Position numbers and translations under genes: made by a program. A stretch of 41,241 nucleotides of DNA from Dehalococcoidia bacterium (lineage in GTDB: Bacteria > Chloroflexota > Dehalococcoidia > Dehalococcoidales > SURF-40), in contig QZJL01000052.1 in NCBI GenBank assembly GCA_003599745.1, positions 1 to 41,241 on the forward strand, in the 5' to 3' direction. This document shows positions 26,907 to 34,727 of the stretch, one piece after another (the stretch's first letter is position 1; each line of letters begins with the position of its first letter). The notes below the pieces were generated by a model. It ran no database searches, was not told the origin of the DNA, and saw only the letters and a list, made by a program, of their open reading frames with translations.

Positions 26907-27884
26907 TTACTGGTAAAGGTGGCAGGCAACGAAATGGCCGCTCCTATCTTGGTATTTCGGCACATCTTTGGAGCAGATTTCCAGACGCTCGGGGCAGCGC
27001 GGGTGGAAGCGGCAACCGGCAGGCGGGTTCAAAGGGCTGGGGATTTCGCCGGGGAGCAGCATACGTTTGCGATTGCGTTCGACAGCGGGGTCGGGGATGG
27101 GCACGGCGGATATCAGCGCCCGCGTGTAAGGGTGGAGGGGGTCGTTGTAGAGGTCGTTGCTGGAAGCCAGCTCCACCAGTTTGCCCAGGTACATTACAGC
27201 GATGCGGTCGCTGATATGCCTGACCAGGGAAAGATCGTGTGAGATGAAGAGCATAGTGAGGTTCATGCTTTCCTGCAGGTTATCCAGAAGGTTTACAATC
27301 TGAGCCTGAATGGAAACGTCGAGCGCGGATACCGGCTCGTCGCATACCAGGAATGAGGGGTTGGTCGCCAGTGACCGGGCGATGCCGATGCGCTGGCGCT
27401 GGCCGCCGCTAAACATGTGCGGGTAGCGCTGCGCCATTTCCGGCTCCAGTTCCACCATGGTCAACAGCTCGGCGACCCTGTCCTTCAGTTGCTTGCCTTT
27501 GGCGATACCATGCACGACTAGTGGCTCGCCGACGATGGACTCCACGGTGTGGCGTGGGTCCAGCGAACTATAAGGGTCCTGAAATATCGGTTGGAATTTG
27601 GGACGCATCGCCCGCAGCTGCCCCCTAGGAATATGGGCGAGGTCAACGCCGTCGAATACTACCTGCCCGTAGGTAACGTCGTGTAGCCGCAGGATGCACT
27701 TGCCGACGGTGGTTTTGCCGGAGCCGGACTCCCCCACCAGTCCCAGGGTTTCCCCCCGGCGGATGAAAAAGCTCACGTTGTCAACCGCCTTGATATCGGC
27801 AATCTTGCGCTGTATGAGGATACCCCGGGTAATCGGGAAGTATTTATAGAGGTTTTTGACCTCGACCAAGATGTTGTTCTCCAA
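26907..27884 (-). CDS. oligopeptide/dipeptide ABC transporter ATP-binding protein (DppF/OppF-like)
   Basis: [16 protein letters not shown] Walker [31 protein letters not shown]-terminal [15 protein letters not shown]. Confidence 0.93.
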
Positions 27885-27888
27885 CTAC

Positions 27889-28863
27889 TTAACCTCCATC
27901 GCAGTAAGGGCAAGCTACCGTGTGGCCTTTGGAAACTTCGACCAGAGGAGGCCATTCGTCGGTGCAGACATCCTTGGTGCAGTAGCAACGCGGGTGGAAG
28001 GGACATCCCGGTGGCCGTCTGACGAGGTCTGGCGGCTGCCCCTGGATGGGAATGAGCTTGGTCTGGCGGTCGCGGTCGAGCCTCGGGCTGCAGTTGAGGA
28101 GCATCCTGGTATAAGGGTGAAGCGGGTTGGCGAAGATCTCTTCGCAGGTGGCCTGTTCAACAATGCGGCCGGCATACATCACGTTGACCCGTTCGGCGTA
28201 CTTGGCGACCATGCCCAGATTATGGGTGATGAGCAGGATGGCGGCATTGAAACGCTGCACTACCGAATCGAGTAGTTCGAGAAGCTGCGCCTGAATCGTG
28301 ACGTCAACCGCGGTGGTGGGTTCGTCAGCGATGATAAGTCTGGGGTTACAGGAGAGCGCCATGGCAATCATCACCCTCTGGCGCATACCGCCGCTGAATT
28401 GCATGGGATATTGCTTGAGCCTTTCCGCATCGGGGATGCCCACCAGCTCCAGCAGACGGGAGGCTTCGGCATAGGCCTTTTCCTTTTCGACCACCTTGTG
28501 CTCTACCATGGTCTCGGTTATCTGTCGGCCGATGGTGAAAACCGGGTTCAGGCTGGTCATCGGTTCCTGGAAAATGACCGAGATTTTATTGCCCCGGATT
28601 TGACGTATTTCCTCCTTATTCAGTTTCAGGAGGTCTTTGCCTTCGAACATCGCTTCGCCGGCCCAGACTTTGCCGGGTGGCTCGGGGATGAGTCGCAGCA
28701 GGGACAGGGCGCTCACCGTCTTGCCGCAGCCGGACTCGCCCACCAGGGCAACGATTTCGCCGGGCATCACGTTGTAGCTGATGCCGTCAACTGCTTTTAC
28801 CGGCCCCCGCCGCGTGTCGAAGTAGGTCTTCAGGTCGCGGACTTCAAGCAGAGGTTCCGCCAT
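27889..28863 (-). CDS. oligopeptide/dipeptide ABC transporter ATP-binding protein (DppD/OppD-like)
   Basis: [62 protein letters not shown]. Confidence 0.93.
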
Positions 28864-28934
28864 TTAGCACGCCTCCAAAACCTGGTTAAATTCAGGGCTA
28901 GCCTTGAACGCAAGGGGTATGAGGGCTAGTTGAT

Positions 28935-28962
28935 TTTATACTACACCGATAAGCGGTGTCAA
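28935..28962 (-). promoter_or_regulatory. sigma70-like promoter of the dpp ATPase pair with inverted repeat in the spacer
   Basis: Minus strand TTGACA (28962-28957), 16-nt spacer, TATAAA (28940-28935); ACACCG-N5-CGGTGT inverted repeat at 28943-28959. Confidence 0.6.
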
Positions 28963-29000
28963 CCTTTCTAGAGAACCGGCCAAATCAAGATGTATTACCC

Positions 29001-30518
29001 TTATCCCCCGATATCCGCCAAGAAACGGGCATAGTCCGATTGCATCGTCCTGATGGCGGCAATTTCCTCTTGTGTGAGCCATTTGCTTACGTCAACCGTG
29101 TCCGAGGGATAGTGCGCCCGCTGGAAGCTTGGTCTCGCGGCGTAGGGAGCGGTGGCGTCAATCGCGATGCCCTCGCCGCCGCCGGCGCCGGTGCGGGCGG
29201 CATACTCGTTGAGAACATAGCCCACAGCAGCGGAGCCGGGCGGCGCCTTGTTAAACCCGGTCTGGGTGTTAGCCCGGGTAGCGATTGCCCAGAGGATGTC
29301 ATCGGCACTGTAAATATTAACGTCGTCGTCAACCGCCAGAATTAGCCGGCTCATCGAGACCCCGAGCGCGCCGGAAAGGATGTTCTTCACGAAGCTGTCG
29401 TCGCCGGAAAAGCGCTTTTTTACCTGGTAGACCGCACCGCTGTTCGCCCTGATGCCGTAAGGGATGTTCACATCGGTGACCAGTCCTGGCGCAATGCCCT
29501 CGGCAATATCGTAAAAGCATGCTTCACGGAATGATCTGGACAGGTTCTCGGTCTCGAAGGAAGCGGCGAGGGGAGTGTAAAAAATTGGCCGGTCCTGACG
29601 ATGGGTGATAGCGGTGACCTGGAACTTGGGAGGTTTCAGCGCTTTAGCGAGGTAACCCGCCCACTCCGGGGCAAACGGCGACGCCTGGGCTTTGCCGAGC
29701 TTTTCCGCTTCATCGGTCTCGAATATTTTCTCCGGCAGGGCATAGCCTTCAATCACCCATTCGCTGTCGGCGATGGCGTAGGCGTCAACCGTTTTGGCTT
29801 TGCAGATTTCCACCGGCGCTTCCTGAAGCGCCCCGGCAATCGCCAGCTCGTCAGTGCCGTCGGGGACAACGGTGTGGATGGCGTAGGCCGCAGCCATCAT
29901 CATCACCGCCGGGGACACGCCGATGTTGATGGTCAAGGGCACGCGGCTGCCTTTAGTAAATTCGCCTGCCGCGATTTTGCCCAGGTGGGTGGCCGGGATG
30001 ATGTTAATGCTGCCCCAGTCCTTGCCCCGGAAATACATGCGCTTGAAGGAAATTTCCCAGGTTTCCTCTGCTGGATATTTTACCAGAGCTACGCCACCGC
30101 CGAGCATCGGGCCGGCATCATCCGGGGAGTGTTTGATGAGCGGGAGAGTGGTGCTGATATCAATGTTGGCGGTAATGACGATTTCCTGGGATGGCGCTTT
30201 AGAGACGATTTTAGGAGGAAGCGGAGTTTTAATAGCCCGGTGGCACTTGAACTTCAGTTTGCGGTGGTCGTCCAGGCCGAACATGGCAGCAGTGTCCTCG
30301 ATGCGGGCGAAGAGGTTACCGGCGTCCCTTACGCCCGGGTAGCCTTTGATGTTCTCGAAGAAGAAAGCCGGGCCGTTGTCCAGCTTTTTCTCGATGGCGC
30401 TGATTTCATAGACGGTGTCCACCTCATCCTTGATTTGCTTTAGCTCGCCGCGTGCCGCGAGAAAATCAATCGCCTCGCGGAAACTCCCCGGGATATGCTT
30501 AAGGCTCTCAGCACCCAT
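29001..30518 (-). CDS. UbiD family decarboxylase
   Basis: FREAIDFLAARGELKQIKDEVDTVYEIS; FFENIKGYP; KDWGSINIIPATHLG; DDDVNIYSADDILWAIATRANTQTGF. Confidence 0.9.
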   Translation of the reverse strand: MGAESLKHIPGSFREAIDFLAARGELKQIKDEVDTVYEISAIEKKLDNGPAFFFENIKGYPGVRDAGNLFARIEDTAAMFGLDDHRKLKFKCHRAIKTPLPPKIVSKAPSQEIVITANIDISTTLPLIKHSPDDAGPMLGGGVALVKYPAEETWEISFKRMYFRGKDWGSINIIPATHLGKIAAGEFTKGSRVPLTINIGVSPAVMMMAAAYAIHTVVPDGTDELAIAGALQEAPVEICKAKTVDAYAIADSEWVIEGYALPEKIFETDEAEKLGKAQASPFAPEWAGYLAKALKPPKFQVTAITHRQDRPIFYTPLAASFETENLSRSFREACFYDIAEGIAPGLVTDVNIPYGIRANSGAVYQVKKRFSGDDSFVKNILSGALGVSMSRLILAVDDDVNIYSADDILWAIATRANTQTGFNKAPPGSAAVGYVLNEYAARTGAGGGEGIAIDATAPYAARPSFQRAHYPSDTVDVSKWLTQEEIAAIRTMQSDYARFLADIGG

Positions 30519-30699
30519 CGGCCACCTCGAAAGAATGAATCGGGTAAGACGGTTGTCGAAGCACCAGAATATTTCTCGCCACTTGCCTAAATATAGCCAA
30601 ACCGGACTCTAAAGTCAACCTGCGTAGCTTTGGGTGTTAAGTCGGTCTTCGCAAAAAATGAATAAAATCGTAACCTCTGCCCCCGGCTTGTAATATGGA

Positions 30700-30728
30700 A
30701 GGAATGCCAATGGCATACCTGATATAAT
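30700..30728 (+). promoter_or_regulatory. operator-like palindrome immediately upstream of a TATAAT -10 box
   Basis: AGGAATGCCAATGGCATACCT at 30700-30720 has 9 of 10 symmetric pairs; TATAAT at 30723-30728. Confidence 0.6.
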
Positions 30729-30760
30729 CTCGGTAGAGAAGTTCCAGAGGAGGCAAGGCT

Positions 30761-30868
30761 ATGTGTCAGACGTGCCGTCGTCACCATCCTGAGCTTTACG
30801 CTGACAAACCCACCGTCAAGGTCGCGAAGGCAGATAAAGGGAAGAAAACGTCCGCCAAAAAGAAATAG
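30761..30868 (+). CDS. 35-aa small protein with CxxC motif and Lys-rich tail
   Basis: MCQTCRRHHPELYADKPTVKVAKADKGKKTSAKKK*; AGAGGAGG Shine-Dalgarno-like sequence before the ATG; promoter-like element upstream. Not in the supplied ORF list because of length. Confidence 0.55.
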   Translation: MCQTCRRHHPELYADKPTVKVAKADKGKKTSAKKK

Positions 30869-30879
30869 CAAGAAGGTTC

Positions 30880-31950
30880 TTAAGTTCCTATTCTCAGGAC
30901 TTTCGAGCCGCGGATTTGGCCGCTTTTAAGCTCGACCAGGGCTTTATTCGCCTCTGCCAGTCCGTACTCTTGAACCTCGGGTTCAAGGCGCATTTTTGCC
31001 GCTAAACCGAGGAACTCCTGGCCGTCCTGCCTCGTCACGTTGGCCACGGACTTGATTTCCTTTTCCCACCACAGGTGCTCGGGGTAGTCCAGCCCGAATA
31101 GTAAGTCTTTGTCCGCGGGCTCTTTACGGATAAGGTTGATGACAAGTCTGCCGCCCTTTTGCAGGTTTTCCAGGGCGAATAACACCGGTTTCCAGGCGGG
31201 CGTGGTGTCAATCGCACAGTCCAGTTTTTTCGGTGTCCTGTCACTGATGTCGCCGGCCCAGTCCGCGCCCAGTTGCCGGGCTAGTTCTCTTTCGGCAGGG
31301 TTGCGGCTGACGACGAAATTTTCCGAGTTGGGATACAGGAAATTCGCCATCTGGATTACCAGATGGTTGGCGGAGCCGAAACCGTAGAGGCCGAGGGTCT
31401 TGCCGTCGGCCATGCCGGTTAATTTTAACGAGCGGTAGCCAACTACTCCGGCGCACATCAGGGGGGCAACCTTGACCGGGTCACGCAGGTTTTCAGGAAG
31501 CTTCTGGGCGTAGTTTTCATTCAGCACCATATACTCGGCATAACCGCCGTCGGCGTGGCAGCCGGTGCCCTGAAATTCCTCGCACAGGTTTTCTTCCGAG
31601 TTACGGCAGAAGCGGCATTGACCGCAGCTTGAGTATAGCCAGGTGCCGCCGACTCTGTCCCCGGGTTTAAATCTGGTAGCTTTGGTCCCGACTTCAGCGA
31701 CAGTCCCCACCGGCTGGTGCCCCGGAATTACCGGCAGCTTCGGCGGTGATATTCTGCCCTCTATCTGGTCAAGTTCGGTGCGGCAGACGCCGCAGGCGGA
31801 GACCCTGATGAGAATGTCTTTCGGGCCAGGTTTCGGGATGGGCAACTCGACCAGCTCAAGCGGTTCGGTTTTCAGGGGCAGGTCTTCTATTTGCCGTTTT
31901 TTCCCCGCCACTTCGATTTCGCAGTTCTCTTTAAGGACAAGGGCTTTCAT
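30880..31950 (-). CDS. zinc-dependent alcohol dehydrogenase family protein
   Basis: SACGVCRTELDQIEGR; IPGHQPVGTVAEVG; CGQCRFCRNSEENLC structural zinc motif. Confidence 0.92.
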   Translation of the reverse strand: MKALVLKENCEIEVAGKKRQIEDLPLKTEPLELVELPIPKPGPKDILIRVSACGVCRTELDQIEGRISPPKLPVIPGHQPVGTVAEVGTKATRFKPGDRVGGTWLYSSCGQCRFCRNSEENLCEEFQGTGCHADGGYAEYMVLNENYAQKLPENLRDPVKVAPLMCAGVVGYRSLKLTGMADGKTLGLYGFGSANHLVIQMANFLYPNSENFVVSRNPAERELARQLGADWAGDISDRTPKKLDCAIDTTPAWKPVLFALENLQKGGRLVINLIRKEPADKDLLFGLDYPEHLWWEKEIKSVANVTRQDGQEFLGLAAKMRLEPEVQEYGLAEANKALVELKSGQIRGSKVLRIGT

Positions 31951-31959
31951 TCCAGTTCT

Positions 31960-32568
31960 CTAGCCGGGCATTTCTCTGTCCGGTGTGACGATAATACGCC
32001 GGAGTGGTAAGTGTCCGGTGTCTTTGCGGGGTTTGAAGATGATTGATGGCCGCAGCTCTTCGGAGTACGTAAAGCCTTCGGCATCCCTCGCCTCGCCATA
32101 CTTTACTTTCAAATCATCCAGATGGCCGGCGTCTAAAGCCTGCGTCGGGCAACTGTCAACACACACCGGCTTCTGCCTCTCTGCCCACCTTTCCCGGCAC
32201 AGGTCGCACTTCTGCACGCTGGCGTCTTCTTCCGGCCCGAACTGCGGCGCGCCGTAGGGGCAGGCTTCGAAGCATAACTGGCAGCCGTCTTTGCCCAGGC
32301 ACTTCTGGCTGTCTATGGTTACGATGCCGTCTTCCCGCTTGGTGATTGCCCCCTGCGGGCAGGCAGCAACACAGGCGGGGTTCTGGCAGTGATAGCAGGT
32401 CATCGGGAGAAAAGTAACGAATAAGTCCGGGTATCTGCCCTTCTCAACGGTCTTGACCCTCAGCCAGCAGGCCGGCCCGGCGGGCACGTCATGCCAGTCC
32501 CGGCAGGCTACCACGCAGGCGAAGCAGCCGGTACAGCGGTTCTGGTCGAAATAAAATCCGTATTGCAT
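31960..32568 (-). CDS. 4Fe-4S dicluster ferredoxin-type electron transfer subunit (DmsB-like)
   Basis: DQNRCTGCFACVVACRDWHDV; CYHCQNPACVAACPQGAI; CQLCFEACPYGAPQF. Confidence 0.93.
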   Translation of the reverse strand: MQYGFYFDQNRCTGCFACVVACRDWHDVPAGPACWLRVKTVEKGRYPDLFVTFLPMTCYHCQNPACVAACPQGAITKREDGIVTIDSQKCLGKDGCQLCFEACPYGAPQFGPEEDASVQKCDLCRERWAERQKPVCVDSCPTQALDAGHLDDLKVKYGEARDAEGFTYSEELRPSIIFKPRKDTGHLPLRRIIVTPDREMPG

Positions 32569-32570
32569 GG

Positions 32571-34727
32571 TTACTTTTTAGCCTTCTCCACCTGCACCAG
32601 GGCGGTGTTGCTGACGAATGCGCCCGCCGGTGACGTTACGTTTTTAGTGAGCACGTTGGCGCAGCCGCCGTGGTCGGCGCCGGTTTCATCGGGGTCGTAC
32701 CACGCGCCCTGGGGAACGGCGACCACCCCGGGCATTACCCTTTCCGTCACGCGGGCAGGGATTATCATTTCTCCCCGGTCATTGAATACTCTCACTATAG
32801 CTCCGTCGCCGATGCCCCTTTTTTCGGCGTCAGCGGTGTTGATGTCAACTGCCTGGGCCTGCAGCTCGCGGAGCCAGGGCAGGTTATCGAACTGGCTGTG
32901 GGCGCGCCGCCGCAGGTGCGGCGTGATTAATTGCAGCGGGTAATTTTTGGTCAGAGGGTCGTTGCGGCTTTCCCATGTTTCCAGGTATTCAGGAACAGGC
33001 GGTATCCCGGGATGGTTCATTTTGGCGGCTACCCCGGAGAAAATTTCAATCTTTCCCGAAGGGGTGGGAAATGGGTTCTTTGCAGGGGCTCCATCGGACT
33101 TGATGCGGTAGAAGCCCCGTTCTTTGAGGGTATCGAAGTACGGTAGCCCGGCTTCCTGAGATAGTCTTGCCACCATTGACCTTACCAACTCTTCGTCCGA
33201 TTTATCGTTGTAATCGCTGATGCCGAGCTTCGCCGCTAGCGCCTGGCAGATTTGTAGCTGGGACTTCGACTCCCCCAGCGGCTCGATGGCCTTATTCACC
33301 AGAGCGTAGATGCCACCGCCCGGTGGCGCGTAAAGGTCATTCCTCTCCAAGAAAGTGCAAACCGGTAATATAATATCGGCGAATCTGGCCGAGGCGGTCA
33401 TAAATTGCTCTGTCACCAGAATGAACTCCAGTTTCTGGAAAGCCCCGGCTGCCTTATTGACCTCGGCGAGTTGGTTAAGGTAATTGGTATTTGACAGCCA
33501 GAGGAGCTTGTAGTCAGCGGGATAGCCTCCGGCTTTGCCCTTGAGAATGGCATCGGCAAACAGGCTCACGTTGACCCGGGCGCTGGAGTTCACGCTGGCG
33601 CTACGGTAGGGGAGGGCGTTCCAACGCGGCGGAGCTCCGGCTTCCACCTGGTTCGGTGGACCCGGGAGCTGGGTGATAGCGGCCACTGACTTTGTTATGG
33701 GCGCTCCCCCACTCGCAGTGGCTGCGTTGCCGGTGATGGCTTCCAGGGCAAACGCCATCCGGTGGAACTGCTCACCGAAGGCGGTACGTCCGGCGGCATA
33801 ACCGGTGACAATCGCCGCCGGGCTGGTGCCGGCATACATCCGGGCTAATTCGGCGATGGTCGCCGCCGGGACGCCGCTAATATTTTCGGCCCAGGCTGGT
33901 GTTTTTTCGACACCGTCTTCGCCGCCGAGTATATATTTTTGGAACCGGTCGAAGCCAAAAGTATAAGTATCAATAAAGTGCTGGTTGGTCCGGTTTTCCT
34001 TAATTAGCACGTAGGCTATCGCGCCGAGGACGGCGGTATCGGTTCCCGGCCTTATGGGAATCCACCGGTCGGCGAGGACTGCCGCCGAGTCGGTGAACTG
34101 GGGGTCCAGGCAGATGAATTTCGTGCCGTTCTCTTTGGCTCGGCAAAGTGCCGGGGGGATTGGCGTGCCCTGCTGGGTTACCAATGGGTTCCAGCCCCAC
34201 ATAATAATGAGACGGGACTTCGGGTATTGCTCAGGGGTGTATCCCGCCGGTCTGGCACCATAAGTGATACCGCTGGCAAAGGCGAGGCCTTCGTTCGAGA
34301 TGAAGCCCCAGGGTGCGGTGTAACCGCCGAACTGGCAAAGCAGCCGGTGAAAAGCCTGCGTGTGATGGACGGCGTGAGCATCGGCCATGGAGCAGAAGTG
34401 GAGGATCGAGGCGTTGCCGTAGCTGTCCTTGACCCGCTTAAGCTCCTGTGCCACGGTTTCCAGCGCCTCGTCCCAGGATACCCTGGCAAATTCGCCGGAG
34501 CCTCTGCGCCCCGTCCTCTTGAGAGGATACAGGAGGCGGTCGGGAGCATAAACACGCTGGCGGTAGGCGCGGCCCCGGAGGCACATACGGTGGGACGTTT
34601 CGCCGTCGCCGCCGCTCTCGATGCGCACTATCCGGCCGCTGCGGACGTGCACCTTCATCTCGCAGGTACCGCCGCAGTGGCTGTTGCAGATGGTGCGGAC
34701 TATCTTTTCCTCGTGGTTTGCTTTCAC
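32571..34727 (-). CDS. molybdopterin-dependent oxidoreductase, DMSO reductase superfamily
   Basis: CNSHCGGTCEMKVHV...CLRGRAYRQRVYAPDRLLYPLKR; FARVSWDEALETVAQELKR; C-terminal molydopterin dinucleotide-binding region TPHLRRRAHSQFDN. Confidence 0.92.
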   Translation of the reverse strand: MKANHEEKIVRTICNSHCGGTCEMKVHVRSGRIVRIESGGDGETSHRMCLRGRAYRQRVYAPDRLLYPLKRTGRRGSGEFARVSWDEALETVAQELKRVKDSYGNASILHFCSMADAHAVHHTQAFHRLLCQFGGYTAPWGFISNEGLAFASGITYGARPAGYTPEQYPKSRLIIMWGWNPLVTQQGTPIPPALCRAKENGTKFICLDPQFTDSAAVLADRWIPIRPGTDTAVLGAIAYVLIKENRTNQHFIDTYTFGFDRFQKYILGGEDGVEKTPAWAENISGVPAATIAELARMYAGTSPAAIVTGYAAGRTAFGEQFHRMAFALEAITGNAATASGGAPITKSVAAITQLPGPPNQVEAGAPPRWNALPYRSASVNSSARVNVSLFADAILKGKAGGYPADYKLLWLSNTNYLNQLAEVNKAAGAFQKLEFILVTEQFMTASARFADIILPVCTFLERNDLYAPPGGGIYALVNKAIEPLGESKSQLQICQALAAKLGISDYNDKSDEELVRSMVARLSQEAGLPYFDTLKERGFYRIKSDGAPAKNPFPTPSGKIEIFSGVAAKMNHPGIPPVPEYLETWESRNDPLTKNYPLQLITPHLRRRAHSQFDNLPWLRELQAQAVDINTADAEKRGIGDGAIVRVFNDRGEMIIPARVTERVMPGVVAVPQGAWYDPDETGADHGGCANVLTKNVTSPAGAFVSNTALVQVEKAKK

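Follow-up and report, generated by a model that had tools for sequence, protein, structure and literature searches.

A predicted microprotein gene behind a promoter palindrome in a Dehalococcoidia genome: the gene is conserved, the palindrome is not

A 41,241-nucleotide stretch of the genome of a Dehalococcoidia bacterium (contig QZJL01000052.1, hereafter the window) contains an open reading frame (ORF) of only 35 codons behind a promoter-like sequence that overlaps an almost perfect palindrome. Gene catalogues of Dehalococcoidia tend to miss such short ORFs. The locus raises two questions: is this ORF a gene, and is the palindrome an operator that controls it?

Position and Expression Signals of the Micro-ORF

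The micro-ORF lies on the plus strand with its ATG at position 30761, the coding part at 30761-30865 and a TAG stop codon at 30866-30868, and encodes the 35-residue peptide MCQTCRRHHPELYADKPTVKVAKADKGKKTSAKKK. A Shine-Dalgarno-like sequence, GAGGAGG (30747-30753, plus strand), is located 7 nt 5′ of the ATG, and all 13 genomes that carry the ORF have a GGAG-type site at this place (see below). Further upstream, TATAAT (30723-30728) is preceded by a TG (30720-30721) and forms with it the extended -10 promoter element TGATATAAT (30720-30728, plus strand); the transcription start is predicted at about 30735. The last T (30720) of the imperfect palindrome AGGAATGCCAATGGCATACCT (30700-30720) is part of this TG. 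ORF, TATAAT, GAGGAGG and a palindrome with nine of ten symmetric pairs had all been located in a preliminary description of the locus, correctly to the base.

The genes on either side serve here as context only. A UbiD-family decarboxylase gene (29001-30518, minus strand) is divergent to the micro-ORF, and a gene of the zinc-type alcohol dehydrogenase family (30880-31950, minus strand) is convergent to it and ends 11 bp past its stop codon. Since it is flanked by a divergent gene on one side and a convergent gene on the other, the microprotein gene forms a single-gene unit. The UbiD-family gene has a separate, sigma-70-like promoter-like site (TTGACT-17-TATATT, 30590-30618, minus strand) about 80 bp off the palindrome. 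Both neighbors belong to a minus-strand run at 26907-34727 that also includes genes for oligopeptide ABC transporter ATPases, an Fe-S cluster protein and a molybdopterin oxidoreductase, which suggests anaerobic aromatic or alcohol metabolism.

Homologues in Two Orders of Dehalococcoidia

The preliminary description had called for a search for homologues of the micro-ORF, and the ORF turned out to be conserved in 12 further Dehalococcoidia genomes: seven belong to the same order (Dehalococcoidales), and the remaining five to a single genus, g168, from a second order. The peptides from the 13 genomes are 31-37 residues long. Carriers in the same order are the window genome, G023, G140, G126 and four genomes of genus g53, i.e., 8 of 156 genomes with the window's own included; in the second order, a profile search found the gene in 5 of 84 genomes, all of genus g168. 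In the search of the class, profile E-values of the homologues ranged from about 1e-13 to 1e-18 for each genome. When 60 relatives were searched with the protein, there was a single clear match, with 67% identity over 27 residues (E 1.5e-9), in G023, which shares the order of the window genome but not its family; no homologue of the locus was found among these 60 relatives at the DNA level. From another collection, an independent pattern scan retrieved the records DUFB01000064, DUEU01000071, JAUSGV010000161 and PWRA01000112, all assigned to Dehalococcoidia or Dehalococcoidales, which by sequence are the loci of G126, G023, G140 and G497. Because its presence is patchy (8/156 genomes of the order), the function of the microprotein appears to be dispensable.

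Other matches were rejected as chance. Weak profile matches in G056, G189, G430, G257, G601 and G723 were partial and mostly located in long frames or frames without a start, that of G056 falling within an enolase-family gene, and the matches in SAR116, Cyclobacteriaceae, Clostridium and Clostridiales lie in frames unlike the microprotein family. Searches of Pfam, NCBIfam and PDB gave no credible match to the micro-ORF or its alignment, and nothing on the microprotein was found in the literature. Judged by its sequence, the microprotein is a member of an undescribed family, which adds a conserved microprotein family to Dehalococcoidia, probably including Dehalogenimonas.

Selection on the Peptide and Conservation of Its Promoter

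The micro-ORF and its homologue in G023 differ at 7, 6 and 21 sites in codon positions 1, 2 and 3, respectively. Among the four closest g168 sequences, dN is 0.06-0.10 and dS 0.30-0.67, and the genes of G082 and G076 are distinguished by three synonymous changes and no others. In every pair with estimable dS, dN was well below dS, and third-position changes dominate. The micro-ORF thus behaves in both respects, homologues and codon-level purifying selection, as a protein-coding gene, and we regard 30761-30868 (plus strand, including the TAG) as almost certainly a real and conserved one. This agrees with the earlier proposal that a microprotein gene had been missed here, served by a promoter of its own and a strong ribosome-binding site; conservation across two orders can now be added to this.

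Conservation extends into the sequence just upstream of the gene. A TATAAT-like element is found 20-38 nt 5′ of the ATG in 12 of the 13 homologues, and seven have the TG extension. In a comparison of the window with G248, 28 of the 41 nt before the ATG match, as against 12 in the preceding 41 nt; in the 18-nt stretch between the -10 element and the ribosome-binding site 12 positions match (shuffle fraction 0.003). An extended -10 element tolerates the lack of a -35 region. The palindrome in place of a good -35 region had been read as a sign of control by a dimeric repressor or activator; since TGATATAAT is an extended -10 element of the kind common to several homologues, the absent -35 region needs no activator and is explained without such control.

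Conserved Residues and Proposed Function

The microproteins share the core M-C-x2-C-[RK]-x-H-[HN]-P and, behind it, a Lys/Ala/Pro tail with K as the last residue; their net charges are +4 to +10. Invariant in a 12-row alignment are M1, C2, C5, H8, P10, K16, K20 and the last K; C2, C5 and H8 are the only Cys and His residues among them. Where the window has HHPEL, HNPG stands in four of the five sequences from g168, and this replacement by Asn indicates that the second His is not essential. The signature "CxxC plus HH", in which metal binding had been seen, therefore holds for the CxxC, but not for the pair of His residues. A structure model was poor (pLDDT 62, pTM 0.24), with pLDDT values below 50 at residues 23-29 and 33-35 of the tail, as expected of a disordered segment, and a fold search with it gave no match. 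Because of the low confidence of the model, we make no claim on the fold.

From the conserved sequence, we propose that the microprotein gene has its own extended -10 promoter for transcription and uses its strong ribosome-binding site for translation, and that the N-terminal C-x2-C-x2-H[H/N]P segment of the product would bind a metal ion, probably zinc. When Cys stands at position 2, the initiator Met is normally removed, and removal of Met1 before Cys2 could provide an additional N-terminal amine/thiol ligand. The C-x2-C-x2-H head is a putative minimal metal site: as Cys2, Cys5 and His8 are the only three invariant ligands, stable coordination of a single zinc ion would depend on the N-terminus, dimerization or a partner. 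The flexible, strongly basic tail may, by its composition, hold the microprotein on nucleic acid or ribosomes; Lys/Ala/Pro tails are, however, common and no proof of nucleic-acid binding. Metal binding appears the somewhat better-founded of the two properties and is rather probable, whereas for association with nucleic acid or ribosomes we see about even odds. The combined reading, i.e., a real gene whose product acts in trans, binds a metal ion and associates with nucleic acid or ribosomes, has in our estimate a probability of about 0.4-0.5. Expression and metal binding are directly testable because several carrier species have complete single-contig genomes and are thus probably cultured.

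The main rival to a metal site, which we consider rather unlikely but not far-fetched, is a redox or thiol peptide whose CxxC would form a reversible disulfide, for example as a sensor, a thiol buffer or a carrier of sulfur or metal to an enzyme. The same residues would be compatible with such a role, since a conserved His and basic residues are close to the CxxC, and genes for molybdopterin and Fe-S enzymes are located near the microprotein gene in both the window and G023. These neighbors are not conserved, however, a thioredoxin-like context is lacking, and the invariance of His8 favors a function as ligand and with it the metal site.

Small one-domain zinc-finger micro-proteins, e.g., HVO_0758, are known from Haloferax volcanii (PMC10716476, PMC6562870) and carry two C(P)XCG motifs (PMC10716476). 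The two groups are alike in their size below 70 residues, the presence of a Cys-pair motif and small genes that had been overlooked before, but the microprotein described here has a single CxxC, combined with a His and a basic tail, instead of two C(P)XCG motifs. A sequence relation between them was not found. Lys/Ala/Pro-rich basic tails are also borne by bacterial histone-like proteins. The microprotein resembles these in the KPAAKP...KKK composition of its tail and in its positive net charge, but it lacks an HU or H1 domain and has only a Cys/His head of 13-16 residues.

The Palindrome: Operator or Chance

The palindrome has the structure AGGAATGCCA-A-TGGCATACCT with its center at 30710 and a mismatch at the fourth of the ten pairs. 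Relative to the predicted start, it is centered near -25 and spans about -35 to -15; the previous placement "at the -35 position" is correct in that the palindrome covers this position, but it extends well beyond it. Dyad symmetry of nine out of ten pairs over -35 to -15 corresponds to a classical repressor position, which makes it conceivable that a dimeric regulator uses the palindrome as its operator, the microprotein gene being either autoregulated by its metal-binding product or under a metal-responsive repressor. The extended -10 element without a -35 region would fit this idea, as would the MerR-family gene that adjoins the micro-ORF in genus g168.

The comparative data point in the other direction. 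The palindrome, which had been expected to recur upstream of the homologues as the conserved operator of a dimeric regulator, is present in none of the 12 homologous promoters, all of which come from genomes outside the family of the window genome, and the MerR protein of g168 has no counterpart in the window genome or the other carriers of the same order. Statistics on the palindrome are based on the 41-kb window and a pattern search of its own genome. In the window, one palindromic 21-mer of this quality was observed, with 1.2 (uniform model) to 1.95 (Markov model) expected, so that it occurs at chance frequency; when spacers of 0-6 were counted, 13 palindromes of equal quality were found. 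The post hoc chance of finding such a palindrome in a given 50-bp promoter is about 1-2%. The window's own genome, which is 78% complete, contained no second exact copy. Among about 23 near-matches inspected, of roughly 70, in 20 stretches of this genome, there was no symmetric full-length copy; all but two were located within long ORFs, and those two were not symmetric either. A regulon defined by the palindrome found no support in the near-matches inspected. The palindrome is thus at most a lineage-specific operator and probably a product of chance, and its role as operator of the microprotein gene seems unlikely. It illustrates that even a conspicuous palindrome in a promoter can have no bearing on what is conserved at a locus.

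Changing Neighborhoods of the Microprotein Gene

No neighbors of the microprotein gene are common to different genera. In genus g53, probably Dehalogenimonas, four of eight species carry the gene, at three different addresses: in G082 and G076 it sits behind a D-Ala-D-Ala-ligase-like gene, whereas the counterpart of this ligase gene in G077 (79% identical) has no microprotein gene behind it and the G077 copy is located elsewhere (L047:6833-8200 vs. L080). By this comparison, the gene evidently moved or was gained or lost within g53.

In genus g168, the gene adjoins a tRNA-Met gene and ends about 14 bp from it in G497. In G248, it lies between two copies, 223 bp apart, of the 26-nt 3′ end of the tRNA; both belong to a series of five copies, by which the MerR gene (in a unit of 542 bp) and further small units are set off as well. 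The microprotein gene is missing from G331, where the MerR unit and an intact tRNA-Met-like sequence are present, and G301 has other cargo at this site. The location of the g168 module among these repeats hints at past mobility of the microprotein gene.

The g168 arrays (L052:7585-10080 in contig C28 of G248, L054:5187-10600, L091 and L092) consist of units of 223, 312, 542 and 1342 bp; between the units stand 26-nt copies of the tRNA-Met(CAU) 3′ end as direct repeats, and each unit holds one or two small genes, for the microprotein, the MerR regulator or a short membrane-like ORF. Genomes related to the carriers of the array have other cargo or an empty site.

Patchy presence, the changed addresses in G082 and G076 versus G077 and the module between tRNA repeats would all be expected of a passenger gene of small mobile modules, such as a toxin-antitoxin or counter-defence set, whose upkeep is selfish rather than cellular. 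We judge this improbable, as no integrase or recombinase was seen in the neighbors checked, direct repeats of tRNA or tmRNA 3′ ends were found only in g168, with none beside the window copy or the six copies tested from other genomes of its order, no credible relative was detected among phages, viral contigs and plasmids, and purifying selection on the gene is strong. A related and similarly doubtful idea is that the gene and its promoter/leader of about 40 bp form a self-contained mini-gene and spread together as a one-gene module via recombination at the 3′ ends of RNA genes, its product being a metal-dependent nucleic-acid-binding peptide that would serve the host or the element. This idea is based on the g168 unit of about 220 bp between the tRNA-Met 3′-end repeats, beside one- and two-gene units of 0.3-1.3 kb. 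Tandem genomic islands targeted to ssrA are known from Dehalococcoides (PMC3146451). The g168 homologue likewise has direct repeats around it that match the 3′ end of an RNA gene, here tRNA-Met, but its modules are only 0.2-1.3 kb in size and have no visible integrase, and the window copy lacks repeats.

That the ORF is very short and close to its promoter could also indicate a regulatory leader peptide (uORF) or a small RNA with an incidental ORF, which is most improbable given the codon pattern of selection on the peptide, by which this explanation is already largely refuted, the lack of an Rfam match at the locus, and the lack of a conserved co-directional downstream gene. Since the neighbors differ in every genus and the window has no co-directional gene next in line, the microprotein very probably acts in trans and not as a leader peptide.

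A further small-ORF arrangement was observed next to the homologue in G023, where two very similar short ORFs with a single membrane span and a WYLNIGGIY motif are arranged in tandem (L009:1930-2340, contig C69), with the microprotein gene on one side and a gene for a molybdopterin oxidoreductase on the other.
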